A stretch of DNA of 35,567 nucleotides from the NCBI GenBank assembly GCA_026770585.1, contig MU646334.1, positions 993,050-1,028,616 of the forward strand, read 5' to 3'. Made by a program: the position numbers and the translations under genes. Below the pieces are notes generated by a model. The model was not told where the DNA came from, searched no databases, and saw nothing but the letters and a program-made list of their open reading frames with translations. The stretch is from Baffinella frigidus. Lineage: Eukaryota; Cryptophyceae; Cryptomonadales; Baffinellaceae. Of this stretch, positions 1-35,168 are shown piece after piece. The first letter of the stretch is position 1. Every line of letters begins with the position of its first letter.

Positions 1-49
1 GCGACGGTGCGCGGCTCCAGGTGCATCGCCATCGGAGAAACCATCACGA
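1..49 (-). pseudogene. Truncated copy of exon M5 at window edge
   Basis: Bases 1–49 match bases 156–204 of exon M5 almost exactly. The match breaks at its acceptor-side end and is cut by the window start. Between it and M5 lie two tandem partial family A foldback pieces (about 68–137). Confidence 0.6.

Positions 50-35168: not shown

Follow-up and report, generated by a model that had tools for sequence, protein, structure and literature searches.

Partial exon copies around an M16 peptidase gene as probable scars of local duplications across intron-exon boundaries

Tandem exon duplication can yield mutually exclusive or alternative exons. In a potato RdRp gene, a duplicate spanning an exon boundary became part of the mRNA (PMC4974935). 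In mouse embryonic stem cells, tandem duplications are reported to arise from breaks with protruding ends, and earlier work on tandem duplications from break repair is cited there (Schiml 2016; Vaughn and Bennetzen 2014; PMC5730883). Those duplications are like the exon copies described below in being short, direct, adjacent to the break and sometimes repeated, but they were nuclease-induced and have no reported link with exon edges. Dinoflagellates have TTTAGGG telomeres, with splice donors in Symbiodiniaceae that are often GC or GA (PMC11453091), and carry many slightly different copies of their genes (PMC2488372). The telomere type and the multiple gene versions would suit the DNA studied here if it came from a dinoflagellate, but none of the 13 modelled exons of its peptidase gene has a GC or GA donor. 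A limited search of the literature, in texts accessible in part, found no description of many partial exon copies per gene, which is weak evidence of absence.

The locus and its gene models

The window, by which we mean the whole stretch of 35,567 nucleotides that was analysed, has 52% G+C, contains no N and is dotted throughout with TTTAGGG telomere-type repeats. Its principal gene, on the forward strand at 19194-34724, encodes an M16 peptidase (Pfam PF00675 and PF05193). The model used here comprises 13 exons, P1-P7 and P9-P14, P8 (about 28.2-29.0 kb) being left out, and the exons join in frame within each of the two blocks. All 12 non-initial exons are preceded by AG and all 13 are followed by GT, and the lengths of 12 of the 13 are not multiples of three. 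A ciliate germline arrangement of MDS and IES was rejected on the same borders, which are GT/AG splice borders and not pointer repeats. Among the modelled exons, the donors (19306-34724) share scant similarity past the GT. P2 carries AHYLEH, an HxxEH motif. The product can be aligned with relatives, mostly metagenome records (P0001 and P0003 are homologous at P1), and in relative P0002 (22 contigs) the P7-P14 part (27515-34726) corresponds to one open frame, such that the introns of this part seem to be absent there. Relatives sought among viral contigs and genome contigs, together with an Rfam scan, yielded nothing informative. Upstream of the peptidase gene lies a DnaJ-domain gene (J), and the reverse strand of about the first 7 kb holds the M gene, presumed to encode a membrane protein; as the pieces of the M gene gave no match against Pfam, its exons were defined solely by open reading frames with splice-like borders.

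The introns contain MITE-like pieces and other repeats. The P5-P6 intron (26139-26397, 259 nt) consists almost entirely of CCCTAAA telomere-type repeat, with 243 nt of low complexity, and is flanked by a direct 9-nt repeat, GAGGAGCAG, found at the end of P5 and again at the end of the intron; relatives P0001, P0003 and P0004 are continuous across this site, and the intron looks like one gained by insertion of, or repair with, telomere-type DNA. Perfect telomere-type arrays of at least three units occur three times at 1344-7525, around the reverse-strand M gene, where they are G-rich on the forward strand, and six times at 17082-28637, before and in the peptidase gene, where they are C-rich on the forward strand. 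The arrays are C-rich in the sense strand of both genes, a degenerate array at 26832-26942 being the exception. A 137-bp MITE-like element at 14090-14226 has the terminal inverted repeat TAGCTCTGTCTCA (by eye), and its inner motif, CATGTCAACTTAAGMATAGTC, is matched at 14 places in the window with up to three mismatches. Palindromic elements of about 120 bp that end in GAGCGAGGTACCCCTGT cluster at 15087-16332, and a second palindromic family occupies 11542-11709 and 13331-13498 and, by eye, also a site near 22801-22968. The window terminates in a run of 34 C (35534-35567), perhaps a sequencing or contig-end artefact.

Number and geometry of the partial copies

A search of the exons against the window located 38 partial same-strand copies lying within 3 kb of 11 of the 13 modelled peptidase exons (P2-P5, P7 and P9-P14, with one to six copies each), whereas P1 and P6 have none (Table 1). 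No same-strand copy of a peptidase exon was found beyond 3 kb in the window, and the one inverted exon match, of 17 nt, is at chance level. The same search of 30 dinucleotide-shuffled windows found 0.40 matches on average and never more than 2, which rules out a chance origin. The copies are 74-100% identical to their exons and not one of the 38 is complete, although 36 reach an edge of the exon, those on the acceptor side to within 6 nt. The first-pass annotation of this DNA had described truncated copies beside nearly every peptidase exon in the same orientation, some keeping the acceptor end and others the donor end, and had judged them too systematic for chance, a description that these counts bear out. 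It had missed the rule by which the two kinds are arranged: the 18 acceptor-edge copies, cut short on the 3' side, are without exception upstream of the intact exon, and the 18 donor-edge copies, cut short on the 5' side, are without exception downstream of it. The remaining two copies (P3 and P5) are internal and both upstream.

Table 1. Intact exons and their partial copies (window positions; upstream and downstream in the sense of the gene)
Exon	Intact exon	Strand	Upstream copies	Downstream copies	Remarks
P1	19194..19306	+			starts at ATG; zero copies
P2	21234..21334	+	acceptor-side, 3'-truncated: 20449-20488, 20605-20659, 20828-20887, 21030-21089	donor-side: 21440-21525, 21984-22005 (without GT)	carries AHYLEH
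P3	23867..24000	+	internal: 22983-23025; acceptor-side: 23169-23242, 23409-23484, 23625-23700	donor-side: 24136..24204	upstream array (22983..23700) of a roughly 242-bp tandem unit with 21-bp satellite
P4	24564..24691	+		donor-side: 24811-24879, 24967-25003, 25102-25171	copies interleaved with MITE-like pieces
P5	26063..26138	+	internal: 25597-25647; acceptor-side: 25779-25805 (AG missing at expected place), 25903-25936		
P6	26398..26444	+			zero copies
P7	27514..27596	+	acceptor-side: 27255-27301	donor-side: 27727-27775	
P9	29450..29523	+	29231-29271	29660-29707, 29992-30025, 30161-30204	
P10	30765..30873	+		30947-30989, 31117-31175, 31253-31294	
P11	31961..32163	+	31618-31677, 31815-31875 (1-nt insertion)		
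P12	32282..32330	+		32428-32445	
P13	33250..33324	+	32876-32913, 33061-33113	33581-33624, 33772-33835	
P14	34625..34724	+	34067-34102, 34341-34382 (without AG), 34531-34572	34882-34946, 35104-35168	222-bp tandem unit downstream (34653-35170)
J4	10565..10678	+		donor-side: 10756-10831	
Mg	138..218	-	430-473, 622-665, 789-808	1-49	copy 1-49 cut by window edge, donor end out of view
Mc	3214..3288	-	3455-3501, 3656-3718	3014-3061, 2845-2892	
Mb	4926..4987	-	5169-5227		3' end of exon uncertain
Ma	6413..6465	-	acceptor-side: 6829-6871		3' end of exon not fixed
Further M exon	three places, 2075-2650	-			left out of upstream/downstream classification

The splice dinucleotides are retained in most of these copies (AG in 16 of 18 on the acceptor side, GT in 17 of 18 on the donor side). 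Such retention is to be expected, because one member of each pair carries the site from which the other derives and the second has to function, and a binomial treatment of it as a signal (13 of the 16 copies without intron homology) was withdrawn, its null of 1/16 being wrong. Homology continues past the AG or GT into the intron in 20 of the 36 edge copies and is not recognisable in the other 16, the exon parts of which are still 83-100% identical. Of two copies, the nearer one resembles the intact exon more closely in 22 pairs and less closely in 7 (permutation p 0.008), the pattern to be expected when copies form beside the working exon. In each of the six intervals that contain both classes, one of which (P7-P9) spans the unmodelled P8, the downstream copies of one exon precede the upstream copies of the next modelled exon. 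The peptidase copies are not independent of one another, because some have multiplied as tandem units, which at P2, P3 and P14 include intron DNA. The separation of copies by mobile or satellite DNA, described in the first-pass annotation, holds for many of them, with satellites, telomere-type repeats or MITE-like elements in between, but others are plain tandem units, such as the 222-bp unit downstream of P14. Copies were also present, as that annotation had stated, at J4 and at the four M exons tested (Mg, Mc, Mb and Ma, out of the six it named). Ten of 11 copies here obey the upstream/downstream rule, nine from Mg, Mc and Ma and one from J4; the Mb copy is ambiguous, as it covers 59 of 62 modelled nucleotides and apparently lacks only the donor (by eye).

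The suggestion that the copies may provide alternative exons gained no support. Besides the lack of any complete copy among the 38, there are nonsynonymous changes, two 1-nt gaps and, in downstream copies, stops, and the truncated ends of the upstream copies have no consistent in-frame donor. Splicing-in as mini-exons was rejected, since stop-free in-frame donors follow 10 of the 18 acceptor-side copies at inconsistent places and lengths. Creation of internal introns of the AGGT type was also considered and set aside, there being no AGGT in the duplicated exon parts (by eye).

A duplication model and the synonymous excess

The adjacency, direct orientation, geometry and tandem multiplication of the copies and the absence of complete ones, as observed in the peptidase gene, allow a model to be proposed in which the copies are, we think probably, scars left by short local duplications that occurred again and again across intron-exon boundaries, the survivors having been filtered by selection. 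In this model, a break near an exon edge would be repaired such that a segment running from intron to exon is doubled as a direct repeat, in many cases with satellite, telomere-type repeat or MITE-like DNA as filler between the duplicates, and some duplicated segments would then multiply as tandem units. Doubling in place of a segment that runs from an intron into an exon would leave the complete exon preceded by a 3'-truncated copy, and doubling of one that runs from an exon into the downstream intron would leave it followed by a 5'-truncated copy, so that survivors would have one complete exon and an extra one missing an end. Doubling of a whole exon should be purged, because it adds an exon and, for 12 of the 13 lengths, would shift the frame; a filter acting on complete second exons would therefore place acceptor copies upstream and donor copies downstream and leave none complete. 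From this arrangement we infer that break repair was the trigger and that selection acted as the filter. The local copying mechanism envisaged in the first-pass annotation is upheld in that copies are adjacent, direct and more similar when nearer, but template switching onto a random strand is not favoured, because a single 17-nt inverted match stands against 38 direct copies and inverted repeats cover none of the exons.

Local direct repeats cover 63.9% of the bases of intact peptidase exons and 38.9% of peptidase intron bases outside the copies; elsewhere their coverage is 21.7% in the gap between the J and peptidase genes (10.9-19.2 kb), 44.6% in the M region and 6.0% in the J region. Local inverted repeats cover 0% of intact exon bases versus 8.5% of copy bases. 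Random tandem duplication followed by a selection filter was simulated under 14 completed settings (four, three unbalanced and seven). The four-setting simulation reproduced the geometry, with 1286 of 1316 classed copies fitting the rule, and so did one of the seven, the setting with the copy number closest to 38 (49.2; 28.2 fitting versus 0.8 non-fitting copies per run). The six others fell well short of 38 copies, and not one of the seven reproduced all observed values together. That exon edges keep being copied, as had been proposed, stands insofar as exons remain over-represented among local repeats compared with the simulations, but the edge bias is in part an effect of selection, because only duplications that cross a boundary or are purely intronic survive.

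Between copies and intact exons there are 185 differences, of which 107 are synonymous, 75 nonsynonymous and 3 stops, whereas random changes would be expected to fall at 22:75:3 per cent. With the observed spectrum of changes placed randomly, 44.9 of 185 synonymous changes are expected, which rules out CpG or base-change bias as the source of the excess. Double counting and misaligned ends were excluded by parsimony counts, in which each change enters once, with truncated ends trimmed by 0, 6 or 10 nt. With a trim of 6 nt, the 20 upstream copies (with the two internal ones among them) show 45:15:0 (75% synonymous) and the 18 downstream copies 27:36:3 (41%), a difference that holds at each trim (Fisher p 1.4e-4 at trim 6, 0.002 at trim 0 and 0.0007 at trim 10), and synonymous changes outnumber nonsynonymous ones in eight of eight exons with upstream copies and two of eight with changed downstream copies (trim 6). 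Comparisons of copy with copy, in which pairs are not independent, lean the same way (58:30:0 upstream, 20:31:4 downstream). If a copy were neutral from birth while the exon changed synonymously only, at equal rates, no more than about 37% of differences could be synonymous. The same pipeline was applied to 200 neutral runs, which rule out detection bias: none reached the upstream fraction of 0.75, pooled fractions peaked at 0.51 (0.57 in the real data), and the difference of 0.34 between the two sides was never seen in runs that had 30 or more changes on each side. The upstream copies therefore seem to have diverged mostly as coding sequence: either they derive from a diverged coding source and turned into stumps recently, or they are constrained in place.

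It is tentatively suggested, at somewhat less than even weight, that many of the duplication events drew, for repair, on a diverged coding form of the exon (an allele or paralogue), so that mostly synonymous differences would be present at the birth of the copy. A break inside the exon would be repaired by copying from the homologue, and end joining would close it to leave a stump beside the rebuilt exon, copy and intact exon then being alike in the exon part only. A synonymous excess above both the neutral bound and all 200 neutral runs counts in favour of this source, as do the 16 edge copies without intron homology; such a lack of homology would be expected for diverged versions, but short duplications with filler would look alike. 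However, restriction of the excess to the upstream side is predicted neither by the repair model nor by a diverged source, and the synonymous lean among upstream copies themselves finds no simple account in differences present at birth. It is doubtful, though conceivable, that acceptor-side half-exons are under coding selection, being read in some transcripts or exchanging halves with working exons; if this were true, the locus would be a standing reservoir of diverged half-exons. The upstream excess is in any case a concrete and testable anomaly.

Plain, uniform local tandem duplication from the neighbouring exon followed by neutral decay, for which a single version of the gene suffices, accounts for the geometry, orientation and arrays, and the downstream pattern is close to neutral (0.41 against the bound of 0.37). 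The P2 pair at 20828 and 21030 also looks neutral, with two synonymous and two nonsynonymous differences in 60 nt and the following introns 96.5% identical. However, the upstream and pooled synonymous fractions exceed those of every neutral run, and uniform duplication predicts that introns hold more local repeats than exons, as they did in 14 of 14 simulated settings, contrary to what is observed; we therefore consider this account unlikely.

Less probable still is that the upstream acceptor-side copies are coding-constrained in place and spliced into some transcripts, somewhat like the duplicate in the potato RdRp gene. The contrast in synonymous changes between upstream and downstream copies, overall and exon by exon, would fit, as would the P3 copies, which differ by 2-4 per 74-76 exon nt against about 18% in the adjoining satellite, and AG is kept by most acceptor-side copies. 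However, that retention is expected anyway, and past the truncated ends there is no shared donor, frame or length; the frame of the copy at 32876 runs into a stop right at its end, the copy at 31815 has a 1-nt insertion and that at 20605 two nonsynonymous changes.

An assembly artefact, in which haplotypes or paralogues were placed end to end, is highly improbable. Differences of synonymous type are typical of alleles or paralogues and the window terminates in 34 C, but in a linearised haplotype bubble the donor copy of exon n would come only after the acceptor copy of exon n+1, and since the order is the opposite in six of six intervals a bubble is unlikely; further, exons have up to six copies that mostly differ from each other, the 222-bp and 242-bp tandem units contain intron DNA, and the window has no N. 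Mobile elements inserting at exon edges with very long target-site duplications would explain MITE-like pieces between many copies, for example at P4 and P10, but scarcely merit credence, since several pairs, at P2, P3 and P14, are separated by satellite or plain tandem DNA only and target-site duplications of this length are not known for MITE-like elements.

Comparison with known systems

The copies resemble alternative tandem exon duplication in being adjacent, direct exon copies within one gene, but differ in that the peptidase gene has no complete copy, the near-complete Mb copy being ambiguous. Introner elements (PMC9860276) are likewise repeat families with inverted repeats inside introns, but the unit copied at the peptidase locus is a host exon edge and not an element. 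The potato RdRp gene (PMC4974935) shows an event of the same kind: there, a direct tandem duplicate takes in the 3' end of one intron together with the 5' part of the exon that follows, leaving a partial exon adjoining an existing one. That duplication was, however, a single event in which splicing of the new intron was proven by RNA, whereas the peptidase locus has 36 edge copies of both boundary kinds at 11 exons and, in its sequence, no sign of a new intron. The arrangement poses the question of how splicing settles on a single acceptor where as many as five are nearly identical and donors share little beyond GT. Boundary-crossing duplications, occurring singly, have been proposed as a way in which new introns arise, and with dozens of them in one gene, the raw material of boundary duplication and the selection that filters it can be studied at a single locus.
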